DNA from: a virus
Direction: 5' to 3' (one strand)
Virus record (IMG/VR): IMGVR_UViG_3300009320_000394
Coordinates: 1 to 40,149 of that record
DNA: 40,149 nt
Shown: positions 13,596 to 32,320 of the stretch, piece after piece
Layout: each line of letters starts with the position of its first letter
Numbering within the stretch: the first letter of the stretch is position 1
Position numbers and translations under genes: made by a program
The notes under the pieces: generated by a model
The model's input: only the letters and a program-made list of their open reading frames with translations
What the model was told of the DNA's origin: nothing
Databases searched by the model: none

Positions 13596-13784
13596 CTATG
13601 AGTCATTATACCACCAATCCCAGAAGTCGCAAATCTTGTTGTCCAGCCACCACCGCGCCCGCTTCCACAGGCTTGGCCGCGGCTCCTCCCCCATCTCCTG
13701 CAGCTCCCGAATCGCATCCTTCGCCCCGACATTCGCAGCGTGAAGGATGATGCGGATGAGAGTGTCACGGGTTGGTTCGGTCAT
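13596..13784 (-). CDS. Small Trp-rich basic/helical protein (62 residues)
   Basis: Start chosen at ATG 13784, which overlaps the stop of the zinc-ribbon gene as ATGA; the longer open frame has no support. The sequence opens MTEPTRDTLIRIILHAANVG, which resembles the start of the tape measure protein (MADREILIQIILKAAKEG), and ends with a Trp-rich amphipathic segment, LWKRARWWLDNKICDFWDWW. Such an end could bind membrane or protein partners. The function is unknown. Confidence 0.65.
   Translation of the reverse strand: MTEPTRDTLIRIILHAANVGAKDAIRELQEMGEEPRPSLWKRARWWLDNKICDFWDWWYNDS
13605..13632 (-). promoter_or_regulatory. Extended -10 promoter candidate
   Basis: Minus strand: TATAAT at 13610-13605 directly preceded by TGG (TGn extended -10), with TTGCGA, four of six matches to the -35 consensus, 16 bases upstream at 13632-13627. 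It sits in the end of the 13596-13784 gene and would transcribe the 13261-13485 gene. Confidence 0.4.
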
Positions 13785-14029
13785 GGTTGTACTCCACTCG
13801 GCATCTCCACACTCACCTTGCCGTTCGTCTGCGTGTTCCACGCTTTCACCCAGCCGCACTTCGGGCAGATGACCGTCACACGACCCTCATTCATCTCCAC
13901 TATGACACGGAGCGCACTGTACTTGATGCGTAATACGTTCTCCTCATCAAATCCCCCGAGCTTGTGGCCACAATGGCACTTCCATTCGCGCGGCTCGGGT
14001 GTCGTCTTCTTAGCTTTCTTCTTGCTCAT
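13781..14029 (-). CDS. Zinc-ribbon protein (82 residues)
   Basis: Start at ATG 14029, an ATGA overlap with the double glycosyltransferase gene. A lysine-rich N-terminus (MSKKKAKKTTPEP) precedes two zinc knuckles, CHCGHKL and CPKCGW, separated by about 37 residues including an NEGRVTVIC strand. This is a two-knuckle zinc ribbon of the general kind found in phage Com-like or nucleic-acid-binding proteins. It could act on RNA or DNA. The target is unknown. Confidence 0.75.
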   Translation of the reverse strand: MSKKKAKKTTPEPREWKCHCGHKLGGFDEENVLRIKYSALRVIVEMNEGRVTVICPKCGWVKAWNTQTNGKVSVEMPSGVQP

Positions 14030-16344
14030 CGGTTCACCAACCTTTGACAAAGATCAACAATCCGCTTTTGCAGCACTGTCCACGACCACATCTGCACCCG
14101 GTCATAGCAGCGCCTCGCAACATCTTGGCGCAACTCCACATCCTGCTTCAGCTTCAGAATCGCCTGTGCCACCGTCGCCGGGGCTACTTGACATAATAGC
14201 CCTGCGGTGTGCCAAGTGTCCCAGTGGGCCACCGGAAGGTAGATTGGTGCATCGCCCCAAATCTCCTCGCGCACGCCGTTGTCCTTGGGGCAGATGAGCG
14301 GAACCCCACAAGCACTTGATTCCATAGCTGGGAGTCCGAATCCCTCTGCCTGACTCACATCGCAGAACACATCCATCAGATTGTATCTCTGCACCATATT
14401 CAGGCTCACCATATTGTACGCCCTGGCTTCCTCAATGCTCTGCGTCTCGGGCACATCAATCTCAATCGGCTTGTCGTAGGGAATCCCCCGCACTTGCTGC
14501 GCTAGGTCTGGTGGGAAGAATACCTTGCTGCCCAGACCTCGATAGTCCACCATCTGTCTCAGGGGATAGGCCCCAAGCTGATTCTGTTCATCGGGATTGG
14601 TGTGTAAGTACAAGACAATGTCCTCATGCCCCTCTCGCACCAGTATCTCCAGCGCATCCAAGAGCGTAGGCAACGACTTCACGCGCTTATTACGAGCTAC
14701 AAAACCTGCGACAAACTTATCCCCCCACCCAACCGCATACCTCATCTTGGCCCTCGTCTCGTTGTCCAAGGGCTTGAAATCGGCGTGCTCAATGCCGTGC
14801 GGGGCGACCTCAACCTTGCACTTGAACTGACTCATGATGGCCTTGGCTCCCCACTGGGTGTAGGTGATGGGCACTCCTCCCTTGAGCCAAGTTGCCTTCG
14901 CCATCTCCCCGTATGCGTTCATCAGGGGAAGCGATTCCACCGGGAAGTAGACGATCAGCGGCGATTCCCACTGCAATTCCTCCAGCGTGCGCAGGAACTC
15001 GTAGCAGTTGCCCGGGTCATAGTTCATGTAGAGCACATCAGGCTTCTCAACCCGCAGGAACTCCCCTAGCAGGTTCAGCCCCGACTGGTTGCACCATGAG
15101 CACCCCCTCCAGATGGTCACAGGGTCGTTCCTGTAGCGGCGGGGATTGGGGTCGTAGTCGTACATGCCGAGGCAGGCCACCTGAAAACCCTCTTGGCACA
15201 GGCCGTCCACGACCATTCTGGTCACCACCCCGAAGCCTGTTGTGATCCGTGGACTGTCGGATAGCACACCAACCTTGATCTCCTCAATCGGCTTCTTTCG
15301 CGGGAATATCTTCGCCTTGCCCACATTCGGCGGGATGAGCACTGGCGCTTCCGTGACTTCCAAGAGGGGCCGCGTCATGGCCTCCAGGCTGAAATCCAAC
15401 GCCCTTTCCTGCATCATGGTGCGCAGGATCTTCGCCTTTTCGGGATTCTCAATCAGTTCCAGCGTGTTCTGAACCAAGTCGTCAGGCTCATCCCAAGTCA
15501 GGCAACCGATTTCAGTGATCCCGCCCGAGTTATGGACAATAGGGATCGCTCCCGCAGCCATAGCCTCCACGGCGACTATTCCGAAATGCTCTTTTCCACT
15601 TGGTGCGGTGCTTTTGTAGCCTGCCCCATGCCAATAGTAACTCGCATGGCCCAGAAGCTCCCTCAGTTCCTGCCTGTCAATGTCATGGTGGAAATGCACC
15701 CGCCAGTCAGCCTCAGCCTTGACCTTGTCCAAGTACTTCGTGTGCTGGATGGAGCCCACTAGGTGCAGCTCCCACTCATCCGGATCAGGCAGATAGTCAG
15801 TGAGGCGCTTGAAGGCCCGAATGAGCCACAGGTGGTTCTTGTTGTTCCCCCCGGGCACATCAAAGAAGCGGCCAATGCTGACGATGCTCTTCGTCTTCTC
15901 CAGCGGCTTGAGATCCTCAGTGTGGACTGCTGGATATACGACTTCCGCGTCCCTGCCCCAGTAGCGCTTGATCCACTTGGCGCAGAAGTCGCTGATGGTG
16001 ACGATGCTATCGTACCCCGACACATCCCAGTCGGGGTGCTGGGGGAAGAGCACGAAGAGGATATTGCGTCGGGCGTGGGGCGGCAGGATCGTGGAGTGCG
16101 AGATATTCAGCTGCATATCGTACTGCTGCCAGTTGAAGTTGTCAGGGATCGCTCGCCAGTTCAGGTCTGAGATGTCAAGGCCATACTCGTCTGCGCCGTA
16201 GAAAGCAGGGAAGTCCGCCGTGGTGAAGACCTCAAGATCGTAGTACTTGTCCAGAATGTGTAGCAGGGCGAAGGTGTACGCCTCTCCGCCGCCGTAGCCA
16301 CCTTGTGCGCCTGTATGACTTGCAAAAGCCGCGATGGTGCTCAT
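14026..16344 (-). CDS. Double GT4 glycosyltransferase fusion
   Basis: A 772-residue protein containing two complete GT-B folds. Domain one spans residues 1-330, with its donor-binding E-x7-E motif at Glu252/Glu260 (EHFGIVAVE) and an N-terminal GGYGGGEAY loop. A short linker is followed by domain two, about 353-772, with KVGVLSDSPRITTGFG at its start and E-x7-E at Glu667/Glu675 (EGFGLPAME). Family GT4 enzymes are retaining and use nucleotide-sugar donors. Two linked domains could add two sugars in sequence. The gene overlaps both neighbours by four bases. Confidence 0.9.
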   Translation of the reverse strand: MSTIAAFASHTGAQGGYGGGEAYTFALLHILDKYYDLEVFTTADFPAFYGADEYGLDISDLNWRAIPDNFNWQQYDMQLNISHSTILPPHARRNILFVLFPQHPDWDVSGYDSIVTISDFCAKWIKRYWGRDAEVVYPAVHTEDLKPLEKTKSIVSIGRFFDVPGGNNKNHLWLIRAFKRLTDYLPDPDEWELHLVGSIQHTKYLDKVKAEADWRVHFHHDIDRQELRELLGHASYYWHGAGYKSTAPSGKEHFGIVAVEAMAAGAIPIVHNSGGITEIGCLTWDEPDDLVQNTLELIENPEKAKILRTMMQERALDFSLEAMTRPLLEVTEAPVLIPPNVGKAKIFPRKKPIEEIKVGVLSDSPRITTGFGVVTRMVVDGLCQEGFQVACLGMYDYDPNPRRYRNDPVTIWRGCSWCNQSGLNLLGEFLRVEKPDVLYMNYDPGNCYEFLRTLEELQWESPLIVYFPVESLPLMNAYGEMAKATWLKGGVPITYTQWGAKAIMSQFKCKVEVAPHGIEHADFKPLDNETRAKMRYAVGWGDKFVAGFVARNKRVKSLPTLLDALEILVREGHEDIVLYLHTNPDEQNQLGAYPLRQMVDYRGLGSKVFFPPDLAQQVRGIPYDKPIEIDVPETQSIEEARAYNMVSLNMVQRYNLMDVFCDVSQAEGFGLPAMESSACGVPLICPKDNGVREEIWGDAPIYLPVAHWDTWHTAGLLCQVAPATVAQAILKLKQDVELRQDVARRCYDRVQMWSWTVLQKRIVDLCQRLVNR

Positions 16345-17027
16345 ACTACCTCCGGCACATCCTTGATGACATACTTCCGCTCCGTCAGATCGCCCTTCTT
16401 GTCAAAGCCACTTCCGGGGATGGTCATGTAGAGCGCCTCCCTCTCCTCCCGCCTTGATCTGTGCAACCATCCGAAATGCTTCATGTTCACGTGCCAGTTC
16501 CAGATATTCTGTTCTGGGATGTCGGCCAACTCGCCATCCTTCCTCAGCGTCACATGCTCGTGAACCTGACCCACCCATTGTAGGCCGTCAATGTTCCGAA
16601 AGATGCGCGGCCACGTCTCCCACCCACCGCAGTCAGCAGCGTAGTGCTCTGTATCGGGATACAGGTTCATCTGCCTGACCCTGACAGCCAGACAGGTCTC
16701 AGGCAGGGAGGCCAACACCCTGCGGATGCCCCGACGCACATCTCGGCTTGCCATCTCGTCACAGTCCACCCTCATGATCCAGTCCCCGGTGGCGTGCTCA
16801 AAGGAGATTTGGCGCTGGTTGCCGAAATGGTCTTGCCATTCAACTATTCCGTACTTGACCCGATTCTGGGCATGGCTCTTAGCCCACTCCTCAATGATGC
16901 TTCCTGTGTTATCAAGTGAGCCACCGTCAATTATCACCACCTCGTCGGCGTAGGGCCGAATTGAGTCAAGAGCTTGTTCAATATAGCGCTCCTCGTCCAA
17001 AGCGATGAGGCAAACACTAATTCTCAA
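16341..17027 (-). CDS. Family 2 glycosyltransferase (GT-A)
   Basis: A 228-residue protein with the GT2 start MRISVCLIALDEERYIEQAL, the nucleotide-binding segment VVIIDGGSLDNT, and the metal-binding DCD in IMRVDCDE at about residues 86-93. FGNQRQISFEHATGDW is typical of the KdtX/WaaE-like branch that acts on lipid-linked or lipopolysaccharide-type glycans. QWVGQVHEHV supplies the conserved acceptor-side motif. No membrane anchor is seen, so it is probably cytoplasmic. Its end overlaps the double GT4 gene as ATGA. Confidence 0.9.
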   Translation of the reverse strand: MRISVCLIALDEERYIEQALDSIRPYADEVVIIDGGSLDNTGSIIEEWAKSHAQNRVKYGIVEWQDHFGNQRQISFEHATGDWIMRVDCDEMASRDVRRGIRRVLASLPETCLAVRVRQMNLYPDTEHYAADCGGWETWPRIFRNIDGLQWVGQVHEHVTLRKDGELADIPEQNIWNWHVNMKHFGWLHRSRREEREALYMTIPGSGFDKKGDLTERKYVIKDVPEVV

Positions 17028-17040
17028 AGTAGACCCCCCT

Positions 17041-17259
17041 TTATCCTAACCAGTCTATCTCGGGACCCTCAAGAAGCAGTGCCTTGCCGTCAAAGTCAGG
17101 GACTCTCGCTTCAACCAATCGCCCTGTTCTCTGAGATGGATATCCATCAGGTCCACCATAGTAAGAAACTCGGACATAAATTGCCAAGTCGCCGTATTTC
17201 TCAACGTGGCTCCGAAGTATGGGAAGCAAGTCGTTTATGGTAATTGCGTCAAGGCTCAT
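17041..17259 (-). CDS. Small conserved-looking phage protein (72 residues)
   Basis: Starts within the end of the preceding GT4 gene and ends 13 bases before the next. The sequence SLDAITINDLLPILRSHVEKYGDLAIYVRV has the look of a small alpha/beta phage family in which a helix (DLLPLLR) is followed by a GDLPVYV strand and a KALLLEGPE strand near the end. The function is unknown. Its conserved type and tight packing support it as real. Confidence 0.7.
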   Translation of the reverse strand: MSLDAITINDLLPILRSHVEKYGDLAIYVRVSYYGGPDGYPSQRTGRLVEARVPDFDGKALLLEGPEIDWLG

Positions 17260-18259
17260 TGAAATAGATCTCCCTCAGCCGTTCTCCCACGGACCTAGCT
17301 GAAAACCGCTTCAGCGCATCCTTCCGCGCCTTCTCGCTGTACGCCCTCCAGACACTAGGATTGAGCAGCAACCCCCCTATCCCCTGATGCAGCAGATTCC
17401 ACATCCTAGCCGGAACGAGCCACCCCGTCTGGCCATGAATCACAATCTCTCCCGGCCCGCCGCAGGAGGTGCTCACCACTGGTGTCCCGCTGGCCAGCGC
17501 CTCGATGAACACCTGCCCGAACTGCTCCAGCCACTCCCCGAAGGGGTCACGACTGCCCAGCGGATACGAGGGACATGAGAATATCTTGGCCCTTCTCATT
17601 CTCTCCGCCATCTCCGTGCGCGTCAGAAACCCCAGCCACTCAATGTTCACCCCTGACCTGAAGGCCCACATATTGTAGAAATCGCGGTCATCCTCAGAAA
17701 CCTCTCCAGCGACCCAGAGAGCGGCTGAGATGCCCTTCATGGCCCATATCAGGTCTTTCAGCCCCTTCTCTGGCACAACGCGGCCACAGAAGAACACGGC
17801 ATCCTCTCGTCGCTCCAGGGGCAGCGGCTGGAACTCCTCGGTGTCCACTGCGGCCGGAACCACCGCTATCTTCTCCTCGGGCACGCCATCCCAGACCAGT
17901 GCATCGTGGATCATGCGTGTCCGGGCGACGAACTTCCAAGCGTGTTTCATTACACCCTTGCTGTATGTGTCGTGGTTCTTGCCCAGCAAGTTGTCCCAAG
18001 CAGAGATGACCACATAGGCGTGCCGCTTGACAAAGTACTGCGCCCACTCGTAATGCGGATCAGCCACATCAATCACATCAGGGTTGATCTCTTCCAGCAC
18101 CTGCCAAGGCTGGCTGTAGACGAAGGGGATGACGTTCGGAACATTGACAGGCTTTGTGCCACAGGCGTAGACCTCAATGTCGTCGTTGGCGATGCTGGAG
18201 AATGTGGTTATGTCCCATTCGTTTATCCTGTCGTGCCGCACAATCGCTAAACGCAGCAT
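17249..18259 (-). CDS. GT4 glycosyltransferase
   Basis: A 336-residue GT-B enzyme with GGGAGGTGGT before the ATG. The N-terminal acceptor domain starts MLRLAIVRHDRINEWD. The C-terminal donor domain carries AVFFCGRVVPEKGLKDLI (residues about 154-171) and the E-x7-E motif at Glu245/Glu253 (EQFGQVFIEALASGTPVV), followed by GGPGEIV and GWLVP. It transfers a sugar from a nucleotide donor. There is no signal or membrane segment. It lies directly after the orotate phosphoribosyltransferase gene. Confidence 0.92.
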   Translation of the reverse strand: MLRLAIVRHDRINEWDITTFSSIANDDIEVYACGTKPVNVPNVIPFVYSQPWQVLEEINPDVIDVADPHYEWAQYFVKRHAYVVISAWDNLLGKNHDTYSKGVMKHAWKFVARTRMIHDALVWDGVPEEKIAVVPAAVDTEEFQPLPLERREDAVFFCGRVVPEKGLKDLIWAMKGISAALWVAGEVSEDDRDFYNMWAFRSGVNIEWLGFLTRTEMAERMRRAKIFSCPSYPLGSRDPFGEWLEQFGQVFIEALASGTPVVSTSCGGPGEIVIHGQTGWLVPARMWNLLHQGIGGLLLNPSVWRAYSEKARKDALKRFSARSVGERLREIYFNEP

Positions 18260-18299: not shown

Positions 18300-18878
18300 T
18301 CAGCCCGCAACGCTCTGTTCGTCATTATCCACCCCCAGATCGTGCTTGGTAAAGACGGCAGCATAGTCATAACCGGCTTCTGTGATAGCCTCCAACCCGC
18401 CTTCAAGCCTATCCACCAGCGCCACTACCATCACTACTTGACATCCCTGATCTTCGGCAGCTCTCACAGCTTTGAGAAGCGAACTGCCCGTTGTGACAAC
18501 ATCATCCACAATCGCCACTCGCAGCCCGTCTTCATTGGGCAGTGGCCCTTCGATCAGCTGGCCGTCACCGTGACGCTTTGGTCCTTCTTTTCTCACAAGG
18601 AAAGCCGGTATGGGCCTTCCCTCATCGTAGCTCTGTCGCGCCACGGCAGTCACTATAGGATCGGCTCCCATAGTGGGTCCACCAATGGTTTGTACTTCTG
18701 CACCCTCCAGCAAGTCAAGAACTACCTTGCCTACGAGTTTTATGCCTTCAGGATCTAGGGTTACCATCTTGGCATTGATGTAGTAGCTGCTCTGAGTGCC
18801 AGAAGCTAGCTCATAAGTCCCATGCTTCAGTGCTCTTGTTCTCAACAGATCAAGAAGCCTACTTCTGGCAGTGCTCAT
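18300..18878 (-). CDS. pyrE: Orotate phosphoribosyltransferase
   Basis: A 192-residue protein of full family length. It converts orotate and PRPP to orotidine 5'-phosphate in UMP synthesis. Visible signatures are ASGTQSSYYINAK (residues 25-37), the catalytic-loop segment FLVRKEGPKRHG (93-104), and the PRPP-binding loop VAIVDDVVTTGSS (121-133). All key residues of the family appear present. The ATG overlaps the upstream gene as ATGA. Within a sugar-building island its likely benefit is to raise UMP and hence UTP, the precursor of UDP-sugars; that link is inference. A pyrimidine enzyme is uncommon in phages. Confidence 0.93.
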   Translation of the reverse strand: MSTARSRLLDLLRTRALKHGTYELASGTQSSYYINAKMVTLDPEGIKLVGKVVLDLLEGAEVQTIGGPTMGADPIVTAVARQSYDEGRPIPAFLVRKEGPKRHGDGQLIEGPLPNEDGLRVAIVDDVVTTGSSLLKAVRAAEDQGCQVVMVVALVDRLEGGLEAITEAGYDYAAVFTKHDLGVDNDEQSVAG

Positions 18879-19129
18879 GTGTTCTTCTCCTCTGGTTCAT
18901 ATGGCAGGGTGCCGCGCCGTTCCCTGATTCCGTAGATTATTCCGCAGGCTTCCTCCCGTGTAAGAACAGCGTCACATGCTGGACATTGGAAACTGTCACA
19001 GGGCATCCGTGTGGCTTCAATGCGTAGGCCATTCTCTCGGCAGACATGAGCTGCAGTAAGAAGAAGCGAACCAAGCCAACTCAACCACCATCCTGGGTAG
19101 TCCAGCGCTCCTGACTCACCGTAAATCAT
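18875..19129 (-). CDS. Small Cys-containing protein of unknown function (84 residues)
   Basis: Begins inside the last codons of the GT2 gene at ATG 19129 and ends as an ATGA junction with the orotate phosphoribosyltransferase gene. A hydrophobic N-terminal part (WWLSWLGSLLLTAAHVC) is followed by CDSFQCPACDAVLTREEAC, which could hold a zinc ion. The acidic tail is PEEKNT. No family is recognised. Confidence 0.7.
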   Translation of the reverse strand: MIYGESGALDYPGWWLSWLGSLLLTAAHVCRENGLRIEATRMPCDSFQCPACDAVLTREEACGIIYGIRERRGTLPYEPEEKNT

Positions 19130-19799
19130 GTTCCTCCCTCATCGCCATTGCCGCCTCTGTCAAATGATAAACGACCGCGGGGCTGAAAGCGCACATAAAG
19201 CCGAGCTTCCAAGCTCGGAAGACATATTGTCTATCGCTCTTGTCGTACTGCTCACCTGGTGGCCCGGGGGGAAAATCGCCCAAGGCGAAGTAGCAGTCCT
19301 TCCGTAGCATCATCAGTGCGCCCGTGACCCAAGGTACTAACCGCTCACCCCAGTAAATGCAATTCGGCTCATGGTCCCCATAGTGATAGCCACCACCGTA
19401 GGCCCCAGCGTGAGCGATGAGACCGCTCCCCAACAGCAGCTTGCATCCCACAATCGCTGCCCCTGTCCTCGTCGCTGTTGACAGCATCGTCTCCAGCCAG
19501 TGAGGGGTCACTATCGTGTCCGAGTTCAGCAGCAGATACCACTCTGGGTTGACATGCTCCCTCAGCCACCTCAGTCCTTCGTTCACTGCCCTCGTGAACC
19601 TGATGTTCGGCGTGAAGACCAAGTTCAACCAGCCTTCTTGGGCAAGTGATAGCAGCCACTCGGCTGTGCCATCCTTGCTCCCATCGTCCACGACGCACAG
19701 GGAGAAAAGGTGATGCGGTGTGTGCATAAACAGGGAGTCAAGGCAGCGTTCTAGGAAAAACCGATCTTGAAATGAGGGAACCACTAGGCCCACATGCAC
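19116..19799 (-). CDS. Family 2 glycosyltransferase
   Basis: A 227-residue GT-A enzyme starting at GTG 19799, which overlaps the previous TAG (TAGTG). The GT2 features are MHVGLVVPSFQDRFFLERCL, LCVVDDGSKDGTAEWL for the nucleotide, LLLNSDTIVTPHWLE with a modified DXD (NSD), and WVTGALMMLRKD on the acceptor side. It resembles rhamnosyl- or glycosyltransferases of O-antigen and S-layer glycan clusters. It follows directly after the small transmembrane gene of the lysis cassette. Confidence 0.92.
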   Translation of the reverse strand: MHVGLVVPSFQDRFFLERCLDSLFMHTPHHLFSLCVVDDGSKDGTAEWLLSLAQEGWLNLVFTPNIRFTRAVNEGLRWLREHVNPEWYLLLNSDTIVTPHWLETMLSTATRTGAAIVGCKLLLGSGLIAHAGAYGGGYHYGDHEPNCIYWGERLVPWVTGALMMLRKDCYFALGDFPPGPPGEQYDKSDRQYVFRAWKLGFMCAFSPAVVYHLTEAAMAMREEHDLR

Positions 19800-20102: not shown

Positions 20103-20555
20103 TTATTCCAGTACCACAGCCTCAGAAGGAGTGACAAGATCCAAAGTACAGAGAACGATAGTGCCACCGCCGCTGGGGGAATCAGCCATTCGTTCACCAG
20201 GAAACTCCTTGTAGAGATGCAGCCGAAATATCGGGCCAGAGCCATAGATCATGTCCCCTTCGGGGAATCCAAGCCATTCCCTATCCTGCTCCGAGAAGGC
20301 GTATAGCATACCACCTGTAGGGTCTCTCTGGCGCCTGAGTATGAGCCTAGCCAAGACTCTGTGATGGTCTGTTGGCTCGCCCCACCCGTTCCACTGTCTA
20401 GGCTGAAACAAGACCTCCATGACGGTGTCAGGGGAATAGGGACTGCTTACCCGATTCATAATCGCGTGACCGATGGCTAACATTGCATCGTCGCCCAAGA
20501 CGCCCGCCTCGCCAACCAAGACAGCAGCCAAGAGGGTAATTATGTCAGGAGACAA
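20103..20555 (-). CDS. SleB-type cell-wall hydrolase (endolysin candidate)
   Basis: A 150-residue protein of the Hydrolase_2/SleB type. The core is LLAAVLVGEAGVLGDDAMLAI read in parts, with catalytic Glu16 in VGEAG, then HAIMNRV (residues 29-35) and VMEVLFQPRQWNGWG, the family's conserved tail. The enzyme cleaves the glycan strands of peptidoglycan. The start appears to be TTG 20555, since a stop lies just upstream in frame; the weak start may limit expression. There is no signal peptide, so it would depend on a holin, and two tiny membrane genes follow. Active site and fold match the family, although the C-terminal 60 residues are not recognisable. Confidence 0.8.
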   Translation of the reverse strand: MSPDIITLLAAVLVGEAGVLGDDAMLAIGHAIMNRVSSPYSPDTVMEVLFQPRQWNGWGEPTDHHRVLARLILRRQRDPTGGMLYAFSEQDREWLGFPEGDMIYGSGPIFRLHLYKEFPGERMADSPSGGGTIVLCTLDLVTPSEAVVLE

Positions 20556-20993: not shown

Positions 20994-20999
20994 CAGTCC

Positions 21000-22022: not shown

Positions 22023-22258
22023 TATTCCTCCTTTGGATCGGTAAACCTAACAAGTGATGGCGAACCTCCTGTGTCAAGGAACTGCTTGAACAGGTCTGGG
22101 GCTATCAGAATGGGCAATGTCACCTCGTAGGATGTCGGAGCTTCCTTGGCGACTCTTTTCCCACAGTAGGTGCATTTCCAAAAATCGGCTCCGAGTCTCT
22201 CATCTTCGTAGAGTTTGTAGTGCGTCATCTTGGCTAGGCAAATCGGGCAAAACATCAC
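22022..22258 (-). CDS. Zinc-ribbon protein (78 residues)
   Basis: Starts ATG ATG at 22258 after a strong AAAAGGAGGAGTG site. Two knuckles, CPICL and CTYCGKR, about 25 residues apart form a probable zinc ribbon. The C-terminal half (EVTLPILIAPDLFKQFLDTGG) is a separate alpha/beta segment. It overlaps the sulfotransferase reading frame by 59 bases, unusually long for this operon. The function is unknown. Confidence 0.7.
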   Translation of the reverse strand: MMFCPICLAKMTHYKLYEDERLGADFWKCTYCGKRVAKEAPTSYEVTLPILIAPDLFKQFLDTGGSPSLVRFTDPKEE

Positions 22259-24485: not shown

Positions 24486-25053
24486 TGTTCTTATACCCCA
24501 CCAAGTGAATCCTCTCCTCCCGTGTCATCACCACCGAATCCTCAAGATATGTCCTTCCGACGAACTGAACATCCTGAATCGTGAAGCGTCGCTGATGTCG
24601 CTCTTCATGGTAGGCATCACCCTCGGGCACTATGATGAGCACCTTACCCCTTGGTCTCAGCACCCGCAAGAGTTCTTGGAAGAAGAAGTGGAAACTGAAC
24701 CTTGGCTCAAGATGCTCCAGTACGTCCGAGCAGAAGACAGACGCGAAGCTGTCTCTCTCTAGGGGCCAGTGATCCCCAATATCAGCTTGAAGATAGTGCA
24801 GCCTGTCCCTCACCTCCTGCGGCTCATCGTGCCAGTGCTGAGAGCAGATGCGGACACAGAAATCGGAGATGTCAAAGCCCCAACTGTCAATGCCGTCGCG
24901 GGCAAAGATGACGCATTTTTCTCCAGTTCCGCAGCCCACATCGAGGAGAGGACTGCCAAGACCGAAGCACTGGTGGACATCAGCATCCATATGATGCTCC
25001 CAGTGCTCAACGGTGAGGTTGTGGGCGTAGATTTCGTGGCGGGGTTCTACCAC
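24475..25053 (-). CDS. Class I SAM methyltransferase (UbiE/Methyltransf_11 type)
   Basis: A 192-residue protein with an excellent CTGGAGGAGGCC site before GTG 25053. Motif I is LLDVGCGTGEKCVIFA (residues 36-51). Motif II is GFDISDFCV, motif III is LHYLQADIG, and ASVFCSDVLEHLEP with LRVLRPRGKVLIIVPEG completes the core. It transfers a methyl group from SAM to a small molecule or sugar. It is packed between a GT2 gene and another methyltransferase gene. Confidence 0.9.
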   Translation of the reverse strand: MVEPRHEIYAHNLTVEHWEHHMDADVHQCFGLGSPLLDVGCGTGEKCVIFARDGIDSWGFDISDFCVRICSQHWHDEPQEVRDRLHYLQADIGDHWPLERDSFASVFCSDVLEHLEPRFSFHFFFQELLRVLRPRGKVLIIVPEGDAYHEERHQRRFTIQDVQFVGRTYLEDSVVMTREERIHLVGYKNSDT

Positions 25054-25799
25054 GGCCTCCTCCAGTTCACATTCCGATCCCCGCCATCCATGAACCAGGG
25101 TAGTTCGCCATCCACGCTTTCTGCCAACAGCTTCAGCCTCTCCGTGCTGTAGGTAGACAGTTCATACATAGTAGGAATGCGCTCGCACTGGGGAGCCTGA
25201 CAATTGTAGGCTTGCTTGCTATGCCACGCCTCACGGCCCACCTTGCTCCACTTGAAGGCCAGAAGTATGCGATTTACTGCGGCGTAGGCATGATAGAACG
25301 CCGACTTGCCTTTCCAGTCCGCAAAGCCGTGGTTGACGCTCACCCGACGATCACGGACAACTCTGTAGCCGCAACGCTTGGCCTCTTCTCCCAAATCCAC
25401 ATCCCACCACTGAGAAAAAAAGTAGTCTTGGTCAGCCCTGATCTGGTGCGTGTTACGGAAGATGGGTGCAATGCCATCATACCACCAATTCACCACCTGC
25501 CCCCGAGGGTTGGGCGACTCCCCCTCCCTGTTGGGCGTGATGATCCCCACATCGTCGTGCGAGGCGATGTAGTCATACATGACGCGCACGAAGTCAGGCG
25601 ACACAATCTCAATGTCTGAGTCCATGATCAGCACGAAGGGCGCTTCGGACCATTCCAAGGCACAGTTCCACACTCGGCACTCGTGGTCGTAGCGACGGAG
25701 TGCTGTCACTCGCGGCACTCCACACCTCTGACGCAATGCGGCTACCATTCGTCCATTGGCCTCATCGTCCCAGGAGATGACCCACGCCTCCAAATCCAT
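25047..25799 (-). CDS. Family 2-like glycosyltransferase
   Basis: A 250-residue GT-A protein. The start at ATG 25799 (MDLEAWVISWDDEANGRMV) follows GGGAGGAGG and lies five bases past the stop of the previous gene; the longer frame overlaps that gene and lacks support. APFVLIMDSDIEIVSPDFVRV holds the metal-binding DSD motif. Later, DYFFSQWWDVDLGEEAKRCGY matches the acceptor-side ED-like region of GT2 enzymes. The donor sugar is not predictable. Confidence 0.85.
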   Translation of the reverse strand: MDLEAWVISWDDEANGRMVAALRQRCGVPRVTALRRYDHECRVWNCALEWSEAPFVLIMDSDIEIVSPDFVRVMYDYIASHDDVGIITPNREGESPNPRGQVVNWWYDGIAPIFRNTHQIRADQDYFFSQWWDVDLGEEAKRCGYRVVRDRRVSVNHGFADWKGKSAFYHAYAAVNRILLAFKWSKVGREAWHSKQAYNCQAPQCERIPTMYELSTYSTERLKLLAESVDGELPWFMDGGDRNVNWRRPW

Positions 25800-25803
25800 C
25801 GCC

Positions 25804-26370
25804 TCATCCTCCTCCCAAGTGCAACATCCTTGGGTCGCTGTGCTGCTTATGGATGACCGCCAGGCCGCAGGAGTAGGGCAGTTCACACATCTCAATGCCC
25901 AGCGCAGCAATCTGTCTAGCGACCACGTCGGGACCGCCAGCGAAAGTCCGCGTGTCGTGTAGCACTAGCAGCCCATCATCCCTGAGCAGGGGCCAGGCCA
26001 ACTCCACCTCACTAGCGACACTGCTGTAAGAGTGCGTACCATCAATGTGAACCAAATCTGCCACCCGCGTCATCTGGGCCAAGAACTTATGCACCTCCAT
26101 GCGATGCCAAGTCCAGGGCAAGCCTGCCTGCGCCATTGCCTCTATCAGGAGTCCCCAACTATGCTCCTCGTTCCAATCGCAGGAAACCACTTCGCCGCCT
26201 GTTCGCTGCACCGCCCGCAGGAACACCATCGTGCTAACCCCGACACCCCACTCGTAGATGAGTTGAGCTTGGAGGCCCAGAGCCAGGGAGTAGAGTAGGC
26301 AGACCCTGGCGTCCTCCTCCCAATCAGGCCGATTAAGCAAGGAAAGTTCTTCCGTGATCAGTGCCACCAT
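25804..26370 (-). CDS. Methyltransf_24-like protein, paralogue of the next gene
   Basis: A 188-residue protein with the strong site GGGGAGGG directly before ATG 26370. Motif I is QLIYEWGVGVSTMVFLRAV. VADLVHIDGTHSYSSVASEV and LLRDDGLLVLHDTRTFAGGP form the core acidic and HDTR motifs. It is clearly homologous to the 26378-26908 product, so the two arose by tandem duplication. Motif I lacks the usual GxGxG form, so catalytic methyl transfer is likely but not certain. The acceptor is unknown. Confidence 0.8.
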   Translation of the reverse strand: MVALITEELSLLNRPDWEEDARVCLLYSLALGLQAQLIYEWGVGVSTMVFLRAVQRTGGEVVSCDWNEEHSWGLLIEAMAQAGLPWTWHRMEVHKFLAQMTRVADLVHIDGTHSYSSVASEVELAWPLLRDDGLLVLHDTRTFAGGPDVVARQIAALGIEMCELPYSCGLAVIHKQHSDPRMLHLGGG

Positions 26371-26377
26371 CCCTCCC

Positions 26378-26908
26378 CTACGCTGCCTTGTGTAGCACAG
26401 CCAAGCCATGTAACGTCGGTATCTCTACCATCTGGACACGCTTCCAGCCCCACTCTTCCGCTACCCTCCCAGGACCGCTAGGCATGGAGCGTGTGTCGTG
26501 CAGCACCATCAGGCCATCGGGCTTCACTAGCGGCCAGAACTGTTCCACATCAGCGGACACCGACTCGTAGCTGTGACAACCATTGACGTAAACCAAATCC
26601 GGCAAGTGCCAGACCCGCTGGGCCATCTCAATGCTGCTCATGTGCAGGAACTGCCAGTGCGCCAGCAGTCCTGGATCAGTGACCCTCCCGCTGCAGTCCT
26701 CCACATCACAGGAAACGAGCCTACCCCCAGTCTGCTGCATAGCAGATAGAAAGGCATGGGTACTCCTCGCTCCATCCACGCCGATTTCAAACACAAGTTG
26801 GCAATTCAGGCCCAGGGCCAGACCGTGGAGCAAGTATATGTACCCAGCGAGGACGGTGTTGTCAGTATCACTGTCGCTGTAGAGCGCCACGACCTCATCT
26901 GCCGTCAC
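26378..26908 (-). CDS. Methyltransf_24-like protein, tandem paralogue
   Basis: A 176-residue protein. The GTG at 26908 is chosen because it overlaps the stop of the membrane gene (GTGA) and has GGGGGGC upstream. The longer open frame adds 53 codons that do not look like protein. QLVFEIGVDGARSTHAFL is motif I, and PDLVYVNGCHSYESVSADV with VKPDGLMVLHDTRSMPSGP is the core. The paralogue at 25804-26370 keeps IDGTHSY where this copy has VNGCHSY, so the acidic residue is lost here and its activity may differ. Confidence 0.75.
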   Translation of the reverse strand: MTADEVVALYSDSDTDNTVLAGYIYLLHGLALGLNCQLVFEIGVDGARSTHAFLSAMQQTGGRLVSCDVEDCSGRVTDPGLLAHWQFLHMSSIEMAQRVWHLPDLVYVNGCHSYESVSADVEQFWPLVKPDGLMVLHDTRSMPSGPGRVAEEWGWKRVQMVEIPTLHGLAVLHKAA

Positions 26909-27084
26909 TTCACAGCCCCCCATATTGGTTGGGCGAACAGACCCAAGACCACACCGGCCAACCAAAAACAGCCTCGTGGGATGGGAAGGCAGAGTGAATA
27001 CTTGGCGAAGATCAAACCTCCCACAACCACAACCCACAGGACTACAAACAGCACCACTCCTCTCCAATTGAAAGTCCGTTTCAT
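26905..27084 (-). CDS. Small membrane protein (59 residues)
   Basis: Starts at ATG 27084, an ATGA overlap with the methyltransferase gene; the ORF upstream of it is not needed. MKRTFNWRG is followed by VVLFVVLWVVVVGGLIFA, one strong helix, and a second hydrophobic segment, GCFWLAGVVLGLFAQPIWG. It has two predicted transmembrane helices and short termini. No family is recognised. Confidence 0.7.
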   Translation of the reverse strand: MKRTFNWRGVVLFVVLWVVVVGGLIFAKYSLCLPIPRGCFWLAGVVLGLFAQPIWGAVK

Positions 27085-27551
27085 TTCACTGCCCTCCATA
27101 GCTCATATCGAAGTTCCCCATCCTCCCGATATTCCTCCACGCGCTCAAAGTGACCCACAAACCCCACGTAGTGTGCGTCCCACCCCCCAGGCAGGAAGTG
27201 CTCCAGCGTGTCCGACGACCAGAAGTGCTTCATGCTGGGGTCTCGGAACGCCGCCTTAAGATTCAGGTCTACCAGTGGCGTGTGGATCTCCAGGAGGCCA
27301 TTGGGCTTCAGCACACGCCAGCACTCAGATAGGATGAAGATAGGATCCTCCAAGTGCATCAGGATGTTGCGGGCCAGTATTTCACCCACGCTGGAGTCGG
27401 GGTAGGGAATCCCGTTGTTCAGGTCGTGCAGTAGCATCGGGTGTGCATGTTGCTGCCAGTCAATGTGAACCCAGTCCACACCAGCTGGTTTTTGGCTCCC
27501 ACAACCCAGATTGAGTCGCACGACACCTCCCGTCTCGCCAAGACCAGCTTT
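27081..27551 (-). CDS. Class I SAM methyltransferase-like protein
   Basis: A 156-residue protein. The start is GTG 27551, a GTGA junction with the epimerase stop and preceded by AGGAAGG. VVRLNLGCGSQKPAGVDWVHID is motif I plus the acidic residue. Then NGIPYPDSSVGEILARNILMHLED and ECWRVLKPNGLLEIHTPL follow, as in the O-antigen-associated Methyltransf_11 group. The longer upstream frame (26 codons) reads like non-coding sequence. The acceptor is unknown. Confidence 0.85.
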   Translation of the reverse strand, partial: KAGLGETGGVVRLNLGCGSQKPAGVDWVHIDWQQHAHPMLLHDLNNGIPYPDSSVGEILARNILMHLEDPIFILSECWRVLKPNGLLEIHTPLVDLNLKAAFRDPSMKHFWSSDTLEHFLPGGWDAHYVGFVGHFERVEEYREDGELRYELWRAVK

Positions 27552-28612
27552 CACGGTCCTTCCTGCGGCCAATCGCTTGACTGAAGGTGATCCATGCTGT
27601 CCTCGTGCCGCTGCATGAACTCCCTCCACTGGCCGTACAGCGCCTCATCCCGCTCAACCCGCTGGCGGTAGACCAAGTCGTTGATATAGATGGGGTCATC
27701 CCAGTCATATAGCTCATGGGTGATGGTATGCGCAAGGATACCACTCACACCCTTGACGACATCTCCAAAGTTGTGAATATCCAATATCCTCGTTGCCTTG
27801 TACCCGCTGGCGCGGTAGTTGCGCACATCTTCCCGATCCAAGACCTCCAAGCGGGCAGGACAGCCTGATCTCTCACAGGCGTATCGCACTCTCTCCGCAA
27901 CCTGGAGAATCGTGTAGTTATCCTGCACCACATTGAAGATGCCCGTGACACCAAGCGGAGCCAAGAGTCCTTGGTAGTACGCTCGGCACACATCGTTCAT
28001 GTGTATAAGAGGTCGCCAGAGCTTGGGATTGTGGACAGTGATCACACCCCGCGTCACGGCGTGCTTCGTCATGGTATTCACCACGAGGTCATAGCGCATA
28101 CGGGGCGACCAACCGAAGATGGTGCCCTTGCGCAGAATGATGGGCCGGAAGCTCTCATCCTCAGCCATGAGCAGTGCTCGCTCAGCCAGCACTTTGGAGA
28201 TGCCATAGGGAAACGACGGCGATACCTCTGCCTCCTCGTCCATATCCCTCTCAGCACTGTAGCCGTACACTGAACACGTTGAGGCGAAGACGAACCGCCT
28301 CACACCCTTCTGCTTGCACAGAAAAGCCAACAGCGCCGTCCCGGCCGTGTTCACAGCGAAGTTGGCACCTGGCCGGAAGGCCGCCATAGGGTCATTGGAG
28401 ATGGCGGCCAGATGCACCACAGCATCCACTCCGTTCAGCCAGTCCGGGTTGAACTCCATGATGTCGGCCTTGATGATGCGGCAGCCATCCTGCGGTAGAT
28501 GATTGCCGAAGTAGAAAAGATCCACCACCGTCACATCGCAACCCCGGTCAAGGAGATAGGGAACCAGCCGACTGCCGACGTAGCCACCGCCGCCCGTGAC
28601 GAGTACCCTCAT
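27551..28612 (-). CDS. NAD-dependent sugar epimerase/dehydratase
   Basis: A 353-residue extended short-chain dehydrogenase. The Rossmann motif GGGGYVGS lies at residues 7-14, AVVHLAAISNDP at 64-75, the active Ser-x-x-Ser region ASTCSVYG at 110-117 and the catalytic Tyr136-Lys140 in YGISK. It probably remodels a nucleotide sugar at C4 or dehydrates it at C4/C6, as GalE/RmlB-like enzymes do. The next enzyme upstream is the DegT aminotransferase, a common pairing in amino-sugar synthesis. Confidence 0.93.
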   Translation of the reverse strand: MRVLVTGGGGYVGSRLVPYLLDRGCDVTVVDLFYFGNHLPQDGCRIIKADIMEFNPDWLNGVDAVVHLAAISNDPMAAFRPGANFAVNTAGTALLAFLCKQKGVRRFVFASTCSVYGYSAERDMDEEAEVSPSFPYGISKVLAERALLMAEDESFRPIILRKGTIFGWSPRMRYDLVVNTMTKHAVTRGVITVHNPKLWRPLIHMNDVCRAYYQGLLAPLGVTGIFNVVQDNYTILQVAERVRYACERSGCPARLEVLDREDVRNYRASGYKATRILDIHNFGDVVKGVSGILAHTITHELYDWDDPIYINDLVYRQRVERDEALYGQWREFMQRHEDSMDHLQSSDWPQEGP

Positions 28613-28616
28613 CGCC

Positions 28617-29714
28617 CTACCACCCTCCCTTCACTGCCTGGATCACCCTCTCCACGTCCTCGTCCGTCATCCACTGCCCACAGGGGATGGACACCATACG
28701 CGGAGCTACGTATTCAACGCCCTCCAAGTCGTCGCTGGCGAAAGTGTGCCTCTTGAAAGCTGTATACTGATCGTTGCGCGGGTGCACGGGCGAGGCGTCA
28801 ATACCCTTGGAGTCCATCATGCGGACGAAGTCCTCGCGCCCCTCCACGAACAGCGTGAAGAACCAGTAGGCCGGTTCGCATTCGTACTCTGCCCGCTGGA
28901 ACTCAAAGTCGGCCAGCTCCCGCTCGTAGCGCCTCCCGATTTCCCTGCGCCTAGCGAGAATCCCCGGAAGGAAGGGGAGCTGGGCCAAGCCGATGCTGGC
29001 TGCCACATCGTTCATGTGGAACTTGTAACCCACCTCGTCAAAGTCGGTATCCCAAGCACGGTCAGGATTGGAGCGGTCAATTCCGAACCAGCGTAGGCGC
29101 TTGGCGCGTCGTGCCCAACCAGAATGCCATGTGGTCAAGAGTCCCGCATCCCCCGCCGTGATGTGTTTGATGGCCTGAAGGCTGAAACAGCTAATGTCGG
29201 CGATGGAACCGAGGGCGTAGTGCTTATAGGTAGCGCCCAGCGCATGAGCTGCGTCCTCAATAAGATAGATACAACGAGTCGCCCAGAGCATTTCGTCCCA
29301 ATCGCAGGGGAAGCCGCCCCAATCAACGCCGATGACAGCGCCAATGCCAGGACCCCAAGGCCCAGAAAGTCCTCGTTCAACGCTCTCTGCTGAAATGTTC
29401 CCCGTCTTCCTATCCACATCGGCCCAGATGATCTCTGCCCCCAGGTTGACGATAGACACATTGGTCGCGGGAGAGGTGATAGGGGTTGTGATGACCTTGT
29501 CCCCCGGTTGTAGGTCTGTCAGCCGAAATGCAAGGTGGAGAGCCGATGTGCCAGAGTTGACGGCCACCGTGTGCGCATTGCCCACGAACGGCGCAATGGC
29601 CTTCTCAAACTGCTTCACCTTCGGCCCCTCAGCGACGTACCCACTACGCAGCGTCTCCACGACACCACTCAGGTCTTCCGGCATGTGCACCTGAAAGAGG
29701 CGTATCCGTTCCAT
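28617..29714 (-). CDS. DegT/DnrJ/EryC1/StrS aminotransferase
   Basis: A 365-residue PLP enzyme of normal family length with AAAGGAGATGTT before the ATG. NSGTSALHLAF lies at residues 53-63 and TPITSPATNVSI at 77-88. The PLP-stacking segment is YLIEDAAHALGA (150-161) and the PLP lysine is Lys183 in SLQAIKHITAGDAG. It converts a keto sugar nucleotide to an amino sugar. With the epimerase gene next to it, the pair could make a C4- or C3-amino sugar. Confidence 0.95.
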   Translation of the reverse strand: MERIRLFQVHMPEDLSGVVETLRSGYVAEGPKVKQFEKAIAPFVGNAHTVAVNSGTSALHLAFRLTDLQPGDKVITTPITSPATNVSIVNLGAEIIWADVDRKTGNISAESVERGLSGPWGPGIGAVIGVDWGGFPCDWDEMLWATRCIYLIEDAAHALGATYKHYALGSIADISCFSLQAIKHITAGDAGLLTTWHSGWARRAKRLRWFGIDRSNPDRAWDTDFDEVGYKFHMNDVAASIGLAQLPFLPGILARRREIGRRYERELADFEFQRAEYECEPAYWFFTLFVEGREDFVRMMDSKGIDASPVHPRNDQYTAFKRHTFASDDLEGVEYVAPRMVSIPCGQWMTDEDVERVIQAVKGGW

Positions 29715-29726
29715 AACATCTCCTTT

Positions 29727-30314
29727 CTACAGCGGGTTGCAGTATCCATAGGGCGCCTCCCACTTCCAGAAGATCCGCCTCTGCTCTAGGGTTGCGATCA
29801 GCTCCTCCATCTGCGAGGGCACAGGCCCCTTGAAACCGATACCAGCGACGGTGTGGGGCAATCCAGGATCGCCGGCCCAGTCCACCCATTGGCTCTCAAA
29901 GCAACTCAGCAGCTCCTCAAATCCCTGCGGCGTGAAGCGATAGTAGTCTGGCTTGGAGTGAATAGCAAAGCCCATGACAGAACTCACGAGCAGGGCCCCG
30001 CCCGGGCCGAGGACCCGATGGCACTCCTGCATCGCAGTCCAGGGGTCCCTGACATGCTCCAGCGTCTCCAAGCAGAGCACCGTCCCGACGATCTCATCTG
30101 GCCTGTCAATGGCGCACATATCAAGCAGCAGGTCAACCCCAGGCCCCTCCACGATGTCTGCACCGACGTAGTCATAGCCGGGGAAGAAGCTGCGCAAGTC
30201 CACGCGCTCAGGGGGCGCACCATGAACCACGCGAGAGCCAAACTCGTACACTGGGCCGGAGAGCGGGAGGTGCTCAGCGGCATATTGCACGAAGTCGCGG
30301 ATATGCTGCCTCAA
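29727..30314 (-). CDS. Class I SAM methyltransferase
   Basis: A 195-residue protein. The start is probably TTG 30314 (MRQHIRDFVQYAAEHL), overlapping the cupin stop as TTGA, because the homologous group as I recall it opens MRQxIRDFV; GTG 30332 is the alternative. PVYEFGSR and YVGADIVEGPGVDLLLD are motifs I and II, and TVLCLETLEHVRDP and CHRVLGPGGALLVSSVM are later ones. The C-terminal YYRFTPQGFEELL is common in the O-antigen-associated set. Confidence 0.85.
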   Translation of the reverse strand: MRQHIRDFVQYAAEHLPLSGPVYEFGSRVVHGAPPERVDLRSFFPGYDYVGADIVEGPGVDLLLDMCAIDRPDEIVGTVLCLETLEHVRDPWTAMQECHRVLGPGGALLVSSVMGFAIHSKPDYYRFTPQGFEELLSCFESQWVDWAGDPGLPHTVAGIGFKGPVPSQMEELIATLEQRRIFWKWEAPYGYCNPL

Positions 30315-30835
30315 CGAAACTGCACCCCCCACAGCTTCTCACCCAGGAAGTCCCACGGTAGGCGCTCCTCGTCGGGTTGCTCCCGATTGTAGGGCACATT
30401 CGTCACAGTGAGCAGCATCGTATTCGGCTCTAGGCTCATCCAGCCATGCCACACTGTGCGCGGGCAGACCAGCACTTGGGGCTTGCGGGCGGTGAGCACA
30501 ACCGTCTTGGTGTGATAGTTCCCTGCTAGGCTCGGAGCCCGCAAATCATTCAGCATATTCGTGTTTCTGTAGACATAGTTATGGCCTCCTGGCCCCAATA
30601 TGTCCTCTCGGTGGAACAGCACGAACTTGGCACTGCCCCGAATGATGGAGTACCAGTCCACCATCTCCTGGTGGCGATGGAAGGCGCGCACCGTCCCAGC
30701 CTGGGGATTTTCCACGATGTATACCTGTCCCCATGTCTCGCCCTGCTCCAGGAAGTGGGGACTGTCACAACGCAGGATTTCGTACAGTGCCCCTCGATCA
30801 TCAATGTGAACTGCTAGGTCGTACACGCCTTGCAT
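30311..30835 (-). CDS. RmlC-like sugar-nucleotide cupin
   Basis: A 174-residue cupin of the dTDP-4-dehydrorhamnose 3,5-epimerase type with an AGGAGGAAAAC site. It shows DDRGALYEILRC near the start, GQVYIVENPQAGTVRAFHRH with the catalytic His region, WYSIIRGSAKFVLFHRE, and VWHGWMSLEPNTMLL near the end. The enzyme probably epimerises a 4-keto sugar nucleotide made by a dehydratase. A matching 4,6-dehydratase is not obvious, unless the 27551-28612 protein serves that role. Confidence 0.85.
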   Translation of the reverse strand: MQGVYDLAVHIDDRGALYEILRCDSPHFLEQGETWGQVYIVENPQAGTVRAFHRHQEMVDWYSIIRGSAKFVLFHREDILGPGGHNYVYRNTNMLNDLRAPSLAGNYHTKTVVLTARKPQVLVCPRTVWHGWMSLEPNTMLLTVTNVPYNREQPDEERLPWDFLGEKLWGVQFR

Positions 30836-30844
30836 GTTTTCCTC

Positions 30845-31042: not shown

Positions 31043-31065
31043 CTAGTCCTCCTATTCTGTGTGTC

Positions 31066-31812
31066 TCACCACTCCCTAGTAAACGGCCACTTCTCCCACA
31101 GCTTCACTGCGTTGGGATCATCCTCACCAAGGTGCGCCGCCCTCCAGGGGGTAAGCACCCTGTCCCGCCAGCTACCACCCGTTTCGCTGTCGTCCATGAA
31201 CACACAGATGCCCCGCACCATAGTGATGTCGTACCCTGCCTTGAACACGCGGATGGAAAACTCACAATCGGCCCAGCCCATTGAGCCGTCAAAGTCCTCA
31301 TCCGCACCGCCCACCTCTTCCCAGATGTGCCTCGGTAGCGACATCCCCACCCAGGGCACCTTGCACTGGTTGACATCCACTAGGCTCTGGGTAGAGCCGG
31401 GGTGCTGATACCAGTGGGGTTCAGCCGTATCAGCGAGGTGGGGCCAGAGCATGGTGTCAGGGCAGGCTCTATGCAGCAGTTGCAGGATGAGCAAGCTGTG
31501 GTCGTCCACGTAGGAGTCATCCTGGAGCGACCAAAGCATTTCCTTTGAGGATTCCCGCACCGCCCAGTTGAGGTTTGAGTACAGGTGTGGACTGCCATCA
31601 TCCCGTTCCCGATAGAGGTAGTGAATCAAGAAGGGCGTTTCGGGCAGCTCTGGCCGAGGGTCACTGCCGTCGTCTACGACGACTACCTCATGCTCCTTCC
31701 AGATGATGTGCTTCTGGTCGGCGAGGCTCTGCAACAGCCGCGCCAGCGACTGTGGGCGATTGTAGGTTGTGATGAGGATGCTGATTGGAGGCAAACTCAA
31801 ATTGGCCACCAT
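31066..31812 (-). CDS. Family 2 glycosyltransferase
   Basis: A 248-residue GT-A enzyme with AGAAGGAGGAAC before the ATG. ISILITTYNRPQSLARLLQSL is the GT2 start, VVVVDDGSDP binds the nucleotide, and LWSLQDDSYVDDHSLL carries the DD metal motif. GWADCEFSIRVFKAGYDITM holds the catalytic acidic region. It would be cytoplasmic. It is the first convincing glycan gene of the island after the membrane-anchored Thr/Pro-rich protein. Confidence 0.92.
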   Translation of the reverse strand: MVANLSLPPISILITTYNRPQSLARLLQSLADQKHIIWKEHEVVVVDDGSDPRPELPETPFLIHYLYRERDDGSPHLYSNLNWAVRESSKEMLWSLQDDSYVDDHSLLILQLLHRACPDTMLWPHLADTAEPHWYQHPGSTQSLVDVNQCKVPWVGMSLPRHIWEEVGGADEDFDGSMGWADCEFSIRVFKAGYDITMVRGICVFMDDSETGGSWRDRVLTPWRAAHLGEDDPNAVKLWEKWPFTREW

Positions 31813-31870
31813 GTTCCTCCTTCTATTGTGCTATCTAGGATTGCAACCACGATTCCGTCCCACCACCATA

Positions 31871-32320
31871 CTAGGGCGTAGTGGGCATTGTCGGTGTGAT
31901 GGTAGCAATCGCCGTTATGGTCGGCGTCATGGTAAGCGTGGGCGTAGGCGTGAAGATAAAGGGCGGGTCCTGCGTCGGCATACCAGGCGTGAGAGTGGCA
32001 GTCGGCGTATGAGTCATAAACACACCAGTGGGGACAGCCCATGTGGGTGTCGGCTCAGGAGTCGTCACGGCGAGAGTAGCTTGCCCCAAGTTTGTCTGCC
32101 AAATTGGAAGCGCAGCCATCCCTAGTCCCAGCTCCATGTCACACCCATGCCTTGGATCACACACCTCATATTCAATTTGAGCCAACCATAACACAGCGCC
32201 GGCCTCCTCGTCTATTACCCGCCTGATCTCGGCAAAGGCCAGCGGCGACTGCCCAACCACGACAATCTGAACAGCTATCACCACCAGCAGTGCGATTATG
32301 ATCCAATCACGCACTTTCAT
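31871..32320 (-). CDS. Membrane-anchored protein with Thr/Pro-rich tail (149 residues)
   Basis: Start at ATG 32320, an ATGA overlap with the previous gene. The N-terminus MKVRDWIIIALLVVIAVQIVVV is a single anchor or signal. A globular part with CDPRHGC follows. The last 70 residues are rich in Thr and Pro (TPTPTLTMTPTITAIATITP), a low-complexity stalk of the kind often O-glycosylated or spanning a cell wall. It sits just upstream of the glycan island, so it could be its substrate. TPTPT linkers are frequent in Chloroflexota secreted proteins, a weak host hint. Confidence 0.75.
   Translation of the reverse strand: MKVRDWIIIALLVVIAVQIVVVGQSPLAFAEIRRVIDEEAGAVLWLAQIEYEVCDPRHGCDMELGLGMAALPIWQTNLGQATLAVTTPEPTPTWAVPTGVFMTHTPTATLTPGMPTQDPPFIFTPTPTLTMTPTITAIATITPTMPTTP

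Follow-up and report, generated by a model that had tools for sequence, protein, structure and literature searches.

A large glycan-gene island between portal and protease genes as the hallmark of an undescribed lineage of uncultivated tailed bacteriophages

Virion glycosylation is, to our knowledge, known from few phages, and Corndog itself is reportedly among them. In the cluster O mycobacteriophages (the Corndog group) an O-methyltransferase, two glycosyltransferases (GTs) and a putative N-acetylglucosaminyltransferase are encoded between the portal and the capsid maturation protease, and capsid modification was proposed for this module by its authors (PMC4351075). According to Freeman et al. 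2023, as cited in PMC12619734, capsid and tail-tube subunits of Mycobacterium phages carry C-terminal glycans. Here we analysed the 40,149 nucleotides of IMG/VR record IMGVR_UViG_3300009320_000394 (positions 1-40,149, hereafter the window; main genes on the minus strand), in which an initial annotation had described a glycan-biosynthesis island within the phage head module. A glycan island at the portal-protease site is already known in small form from the four genes of the Corndog group; a larger version is carried by the undescribed lineage of the window phage.

On the Firecracker map the Corndog-group module occupies the same interval as the window island, whose placement has a precedent in this O-methyltransferase and three GTs. 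The Corndog-group O-methyltransferase is homologous to TylF proteins in two contigs related to the window, G003 (phmmer 6e-13) and G002 (2e-7); the 39 phage records retrieved with the TylF of G003 all belong to mycobacteriophages, and in those listed the match falls on an O-methyltransferase. In contrast, the window carries other methyltransferases and no TylF, the core GTs described below gave no profile match to Firecracker gp34-36, and the GTs, portal, terminase and capsid of the Corndog group have no detectable homology to those of the lineage. Its module also has four genes against 20 or more in the lineage island, and annotation of the site shows neither a DegT aminotransferase nor an epimerase, a cupin or a sulfotransferase. 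Judged from these comparisons, the portal-protease interval recurs in unrelated phages as a glycan-gene site, and it can serve as a search handle for glycosylated virions in metagenomes.

Two further groups of phages resemble the window in part. Gordonia phages GMA3, Jumbo and Katyusha and Bacillus phage vB_BboS-125 have a homologous portal and/or Phage_cap_E capsid (23-25% identity) and the head gene order of the window, but no GT island between portal and protease, which lie 0.3-2.7 kb apart in the three Gordonia phages. Pontimonas phage phiPsal1, Microcystis phage Mae-JY09 and Tetrasphaera phage TJE1 carry GT genes close to capsid or terminase genes (22-26% identity to the C-terminal half of GT4x2, see below), two of them with methyltransferase or epimerase genes as well; they differ in having few such genes and in location, the genes following the capsid gene or preceding the terminase.

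The island and the lineage that carries it

In the direction of transcription the window encodes terminase, portal, island, a protease-position protein, a decoration-type protein, capsid, connectors and tail. Between portal and protease, profile searches with Pfam and NCBIfam identified eight GT genes along with six methyltransferases, one epimerase of GalE type, a DegT aminotransferase and pyrE; the eight GT genes encode nine GT domains because one of them (14026-16344) has two GT4 domains in tandem. Listed next are the head genes and the five GTs that form a conserved core.

35420-37231, minus strand: terminase large subunit (phrog_38, E = 8.5e-54; 37-48% identical in relatives)
32939-34444, minus strand: portal protein, upstream border of the island (PF06074, E = 1e-9; phrog_113; 33-40% identical in relatives)
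21000-22022, minus strand: GT4c, core GT (PF00534, E = 2.4e-22; order kept in relatives covering the region)
19116-19799, minus strand: GT2b, core GT (PF00535, E = 9e-17)
17249-18259, minus strand: GT4b, core GT (PF00534, E = 1.3e-27)
16341-17027, minus strand: GT2a, core GT, GmaR/SunS-like (PF00535, E = 5e-17; PDB profile matches to GmaR, 4.7e-20, and SunS, 3.9e-15)
14026-16344, minus strand: GT4x2, core GT with tandem GT4 domains (PF00534, E = 1.5e-28, two stretches; 39-44% identical in relatives)
11267-12682, minus strand: protease/scaffold-position protein, downstream border (position and homologues adjoining capsid genes in relatives; phrog_32941, unknown function)
10834-11241, minus strand: head decoration-type protein (phrog_909; 41-52% identical in relatives)
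9755-10819, minus strand: major capsid protein (PF03864, E = 4.7e-16; 41-46% identical in relatives)

The gene content proposed in the initial annotation largely held. Its eight GT genes withstood the profile searches, GT2c only at E = 0.0018 and backed by homologues in the islands of three relatives, and its six methyltransferases (three Methyltransf_24 and three Methyltransf_11 in Pfam), epimerase (E = 1e-35), DegT aminotransferase (E = 4e-78) and orotate phosphoribosyltransferase (TIGR00336) were all recovered. The proposed RmlC-like cupin is marginal, at 26.6 bits against a cut-off of 27, and the sulfotransferase-like gene has the motifs but no profile match, its identity being unproven. 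On the flanks, the portal was borne out, and the protease label derives from the position of the gene and from homologues that neighbour capsid genes. The reported packing by ATGA/GTGA overlaps applies to two 4-base overlaps at clear starts; the other junctions are longer overlaps or gaps of up to ~58 bases. Direct reading found no damage to the catalytic motifs: the GT4 domains have E-x7-E, the GT2 proteins D-x-D or a variant of it, the methyltransferases their glycine motifs and DegT its pyridoxal phosphate lysine. A phage-encoded pathway for a methylated, aminated glycan is well supported. The interval also holds small membrane proteins, pyrE and a SleB-type cell-wall hydrolase (PF07486), so that glycan genes do not make up the whole of it, and what had been taken for a single glycan island is a composite of the five-GT core, a cassette of variable content between portal and GT4c, and a few unrelated genes.

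Relatives were collected from scans of viral contigs and genomes, in which terminase and alignment queries were productive and a single portal or capsid protein as query gave no close relatives. All contigs may be incomplete, and absences refer to the DNA examined. Homologous head genes were found in G034 (37 kb), G002 (83 kb) and G003 (58 kb, with its near-duplicate G004), and further in G001 (32 kb) with its close relative L007, in L146 and G035, and in pieces from a metagenome-assembled genome (MAG) bin (G005). The head genes of these independent contigs, which come from several metagenomes, are 33-48% identical to those of the window. G034, G002 and G003 hold the full island between portal and protease; G001, L007, L146 and G005 are cut by contig ends and match the window arrangement in the part covered. 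No empty portal-protease site was found among the lineage members, G035 being uninformative as it lacks the portal side, and portal and protease adjoin without an island only in the remote cultured relatives named above (capsid 23-25% identical). Chimeric assembly at the island borders, a possibility raised in the initial annotation, is ruled out by the arrangement shared among independent contigs, and GC content is flat across both borders in the window. The island, ~10-20 kb in size, is the hallmark of an undescribed lineage of uncultivated tailed bacteriophages.

The core order GT4c-GT2b-GT4b-GT2a-GT4x2, upstream of the protease, is kept in every contig covering the region. Core GTs are 31-45% identical to those of the window (GT2a of L146, at 36%, lies inside this range), as compared with 33-40% for portal, 41-46% for capsid and 37-48% for terminase. 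The ratios of nonsynonymous to synonymous substitution rates (dN/dS, NG86) between G001 and L007 are 0.079 for GT4c, 0.110 for GT2b, 0.053 for GT4b and 0.073 for GT2a, next to 0.100 for portal and 0.025 for terminase; the comparison of G002 with L146 was saturated and gave no ratio. The core GTs are under purifying selection. Furthermore, the core-GT and head-gene trees both group G003 with G005 and the window with G034, and differ only in placing G001 and G002, which are weakly supported in the head-gene tree. The lineage devotes its ~10-20 kb to glycan genes of which the core is kept as tightly as the head genes and the rest varies. All GT2 matches of the G002 and G003 contigs fall inside the island; weak GT4-like matches occur outside the head module in G035 (flipped coordinates ~28480-29700).

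Variable cassette and border promoters

The remaining genes of the window island, in transcriptional order, are listed here.

31871-32320, minus strand: small protein with N-terminal membrane segment and Pro/Thr-rich tail (direct reading, ATGA overlap with the upstream open reading frame; composition, hydropathy)
31066-31812, minus strand: GT2d, cassette GT (PF00535, E = 5.7e-13; homologues in G034, G002, G003)
30311-30835, minus strand: RmlC/WbuC-like cupin, marginal (PF00908, dTDP_sugar_isom)
29727-30332, minus strand: methyltransferase MT11c (Methyltransf_11, PF08241, E = 8e-9)
28617-29714, minus strand: DegT/DnrJ/EryC1/StrS sugar aminotransferase (PF01041, 263.6 bits, above cut-off over the full length)
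27551-28612, minus strand: GalE-like NAD-dependent epimerase (PF01370)
27081-27629, minus strand: methyltransferase MT11b (PF08241, E = 6e-9)
26378-27067, minus strand: methyltransferase MT24c (Methyltransf_24, PF13578, E = 2.9e-15; homologue in G034)
25804-26409, minus strand: methyltransferase MT24b (PF13578, E = 1.2e-18)
25047-25910, minus strand: GT2c, GT-like (PF00535, below cut-off; homologues in the islands of G034, G002, G003)
24475-25053, minus strand: methyltransferase MT11a (PF08241, E = 3.5e-16)
23892-24485, minus strand: methyltransferase MT24a (PF13578, E = 2.6e-20)
22997-23728, minus strand: TOD1/MUCI70-type GT (PF04765, E = 1.2e-12; homologues in G034, G002)
22200-22808, minus strand: P-loop protein with sulfotransferase-like motifs, identity unproven (GPQRSGT loop, R98/S106)
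20103-20555, minus strand: cell-wall hydrolase, SleB type (PF07486, E = 4e-9)
18300-18878, minus strand: orotate phosphoribosyltransferase pyrE (TIGR00336, 131.3 bits, cut-off 106.8)

Presence in relatives was scored by tblastn at E 1e-5. The window shares GT2d and GT2c with G034, G002 and G003, the TOD1-type GT with G034 and G002, and DegT with G003. Its 22200-22808 protein, epimerase and MT24c have counterparts in G034; the cupin, MT11a-c, pyrE and the hydrolase gave no convincing match in relatives at this threshold. TylF and Sulfotransfer_2 are found in the islands of G002 and G003, Sulfotransfer_3 in that of G003, and a radical SAM protein in that of G034. Sulfation, as suggested in the initial annotation, is unproven for the window and has true Sulfotransfer_2/_3 domains behind it in relatives. 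The 22200-22808 protein matches no Pfam or NCBIfam profile; its GPQRSGT loop and R98/S106 are kept in the 35%-identical G034 homologue, and its low-confidence model has a P-loop fold to which kinases are nearer than sulfotransferases in a fold search. The predicted structure of the cupin was uninformative (predicted local distance difference test, pLDDT, 33). The best solved relatives of DegT are 4zwv/4xau and CalS13. The hydrolase is probably lysis-related, and the Pro/Thr-rich protein, not seen in relatives, is speculatively a conceivable glycan acceptor in the window phage only. The window showed neither a 4,6-dehydratase nor a sugar nucleotidyltransferase, and the precursors would therefore have to be supplied by the host. 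As a separate observation, a TOD1-like GT gene stands shortly before a DegT gene in numerous further viral contigs (L047, L052, L060, L061, L063, L064, L070 and L074-L079).

Two promoter-like sites were found at the downstream border of the window island.

13236-13264, minus strand: extended -10 sigma-70 promoter-like site, 12/12 with TG, between island and protease
13605-13632, minus strand: second promoter-like site, 10/12 with TG

The former, read on the coding strand from 13264 to 13236, is a perfect TTGACA-N17-TATAAT with the TG extension. In the promoter scan, counts at the usual threshold equalled chance and only sites of 11-12/12 were rare: per 40 kb of simulated sequence, a 12/12 match turned up 0.0 times and a match of at least 11 turned up 0.1 times. 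The island-protease border has an 11-12/12 site in G034, G003, L146, G002 and G035, and 12/12 sites directly follow the portal in G034, G003, G001 and L007; altogether near-perfect sites precede the protease in six contigs and follow the portal in four, the window having no 11-12/12 site after its portal. The spacer sequences differ among contigs, except in the close pair G001/L007. The sites suggest that island and capsid genes form separate transcription units in most members. The position within the head module claimed in the initial annotation stands, but most members have strong promoters on either side of the island, which is not simply part of a head operon. Two G034 island proteins with NUMOD-like-looking repeats, resembling homing endonucleases (flipped coordinates 10065-10916 and 27093-28028), each directly follow a perfect promoter-like site inside the island.

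The sigma-70-type sites would imply a bacterial host polymerase and point to bacterial hosts. Fragments of one relative (L108 = WJJK01000131.1; L131, L132) are in a MAG bin named Candidatus Altiarchaeales. An archaeal host is unlikely: a search of 28 further genomes from that phylum did not find the capsid, the promoters follow the bacterial pattern, and a bacterial beta clamp is encoded in G003. A binning error is likelier.

Candidate acceptors of the glycan

Glycosylation of a virion protein is the explanation of the island that we favour, with moderate confidence. Working in the cytoplasm with nucleotide sugars drawn from the host, the five core GTs would assemble a short glycan step by step on a virion protein (capsid, decoration or tail tube), GT2a probably acting directly on the protein. 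The exchangeable cassette between portal and core would add phage-specific residues and tailoring: an amino sugar made by DegT, the epimerase and perhaps the cupin, O-methylation by the six methyltransferases in the window and by TylF in relatives, residues added by extra GTs and, in some relatives, sulfation. The sigma-70 promoters flanking the island in most members would allow its expression apart from the head genes. We infer the virion acceptor, the order of action, the sugar identities and the benefit, which may be shielding against adsorption loss, antibodies and proteases.

The window GTs have no membrane segments, and neither a flippase (PF01943) nor a priming transferase (PF02397) was found in six contigs, control genomes being positive; cytoplasmic stepwise protein glycosylation thus fits better than lipid-linked polysaccharide export. 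Together with the Corndog-group comparison, this favours a virion protein among the three acceptors (virion, host envelope, secreted product) left side by side in the initial annotation. In addition, the nearest solved structures to GT2a in the PDB profile search are the peptide S-glycosyltransferase SunS and the O-GlcNAc transferase GmaR, a lead only, as few structures have been solved for other GT2 clades; GmaR glycosylates flagellin (PMC9638930), and its C-terminal antirepressor part is missing from GT2a. Several points weigh against a virion acceptor. The PDB under-represents lipopolysaccharide GTs, so the GT2a match may be biased; the C-termini of capsid and tail-tube proteins in the lineage are not Ser/Thr-rich; the core GTs are not detectably homologous to those of the Corndog group; the island includes a cell-wall hydrolase; its own promoters loosen the tie to head-gene expression; and export genes could lie outside the possibly incomplete contigs.

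Some of these points would suit a host-envelope role, in which surface glycans of the infected host are remodelled, for instance against superinfection or re-adsorption of progeny to debris. The GT4 and GT2 profiles resemble exopolysaccharide enzymes (NCBIfam), surface polysaccharide synthesis typically involves methyltransferases, aminotransferases and sulfotransferases, a cell-wall hydrolase is encoded in the island, and own promoters would permit early expression. We nevertheless consider this role rather unlikely, since the flippase and priming GT of a Wzx/Wzy-type surface polysaccharide locus were not found in the six lineage contigs, the window GTs are soluble, and the head-gene site and the Corndog-group precedent point to virion proteins. 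That the interval is a hotspot gathering unrelated glycan genes under loose selection, with no single product, would agree with the variable cassette and with third-position GC (GC3) of 0.48-0.58 in some small island genes and pyrE, lower than in head genes; the five-GT core, kept in order and sequence at dN/dS 0.05-0.11, makes this improbable.

Glycosylation of modified bases in the phage genome against restriction is a common role of phage GTs (PMC12619734), and G002 (L120) encodes at 2084-3400 a fusion of DUF6884 with a TGT-like domain, which hints at deazaguanine DNA modification. This gene, however, lies outside the island, the thymidylate synthase/hydroxymethylase family (PF00303), which supplies the pyrimidine hydroxymethylase of T4-type DNA glucosylation, was not found in the six possibly incomplete contigs (controls positive), and sets with several GTs, DegT and TylF suit a larger glycan, which renders DNA hypermodification very improbable. 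Least probable of all is a secreted product, either a decorated small molecule or a glycosylated peptide as with SunS for sublancin. DegT has natural-product aminotransferases such as CalS13 among its near relatives, the name TylF refers to macrolide sugar methylation and a small Pro/Thr-rich membrane protein opens the island; yet the island holds no aglycone-forming enzymes, that protein was not seen in relatives, and the core is under purifying selection together with the head genes.

Virion glycosylation, if correct, would bear on phage stability, adsorption, antibody clearance and structural studies of capsids, and the lineage would be a source of new methyl-, amino- and sulfo-sugar enzymes. 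More tentatively, the lineage may carry long, lineage-specific virion glycans, the cassette being swapped between the fixed core and the portal like bacterial O-antigen loci, as 'serotypes' encoded in the head module.

Other genes of the window and relatives

No RNA families or tRNAs were found in the window. An extra copy of the head decoration-type gene lies upstream of the terminase in G001, G002, G003 and G005 and was not found there in the window. A secreted glycosyl-hydrolase-like gene (6048-7103, minus strand) contains one in-frame TAG at 6720-6722; general recoding is unlikely because other window genes end at TAG. A partial N6/N4 DNA methylase is located at the contig end (39519-40148, minus strand).

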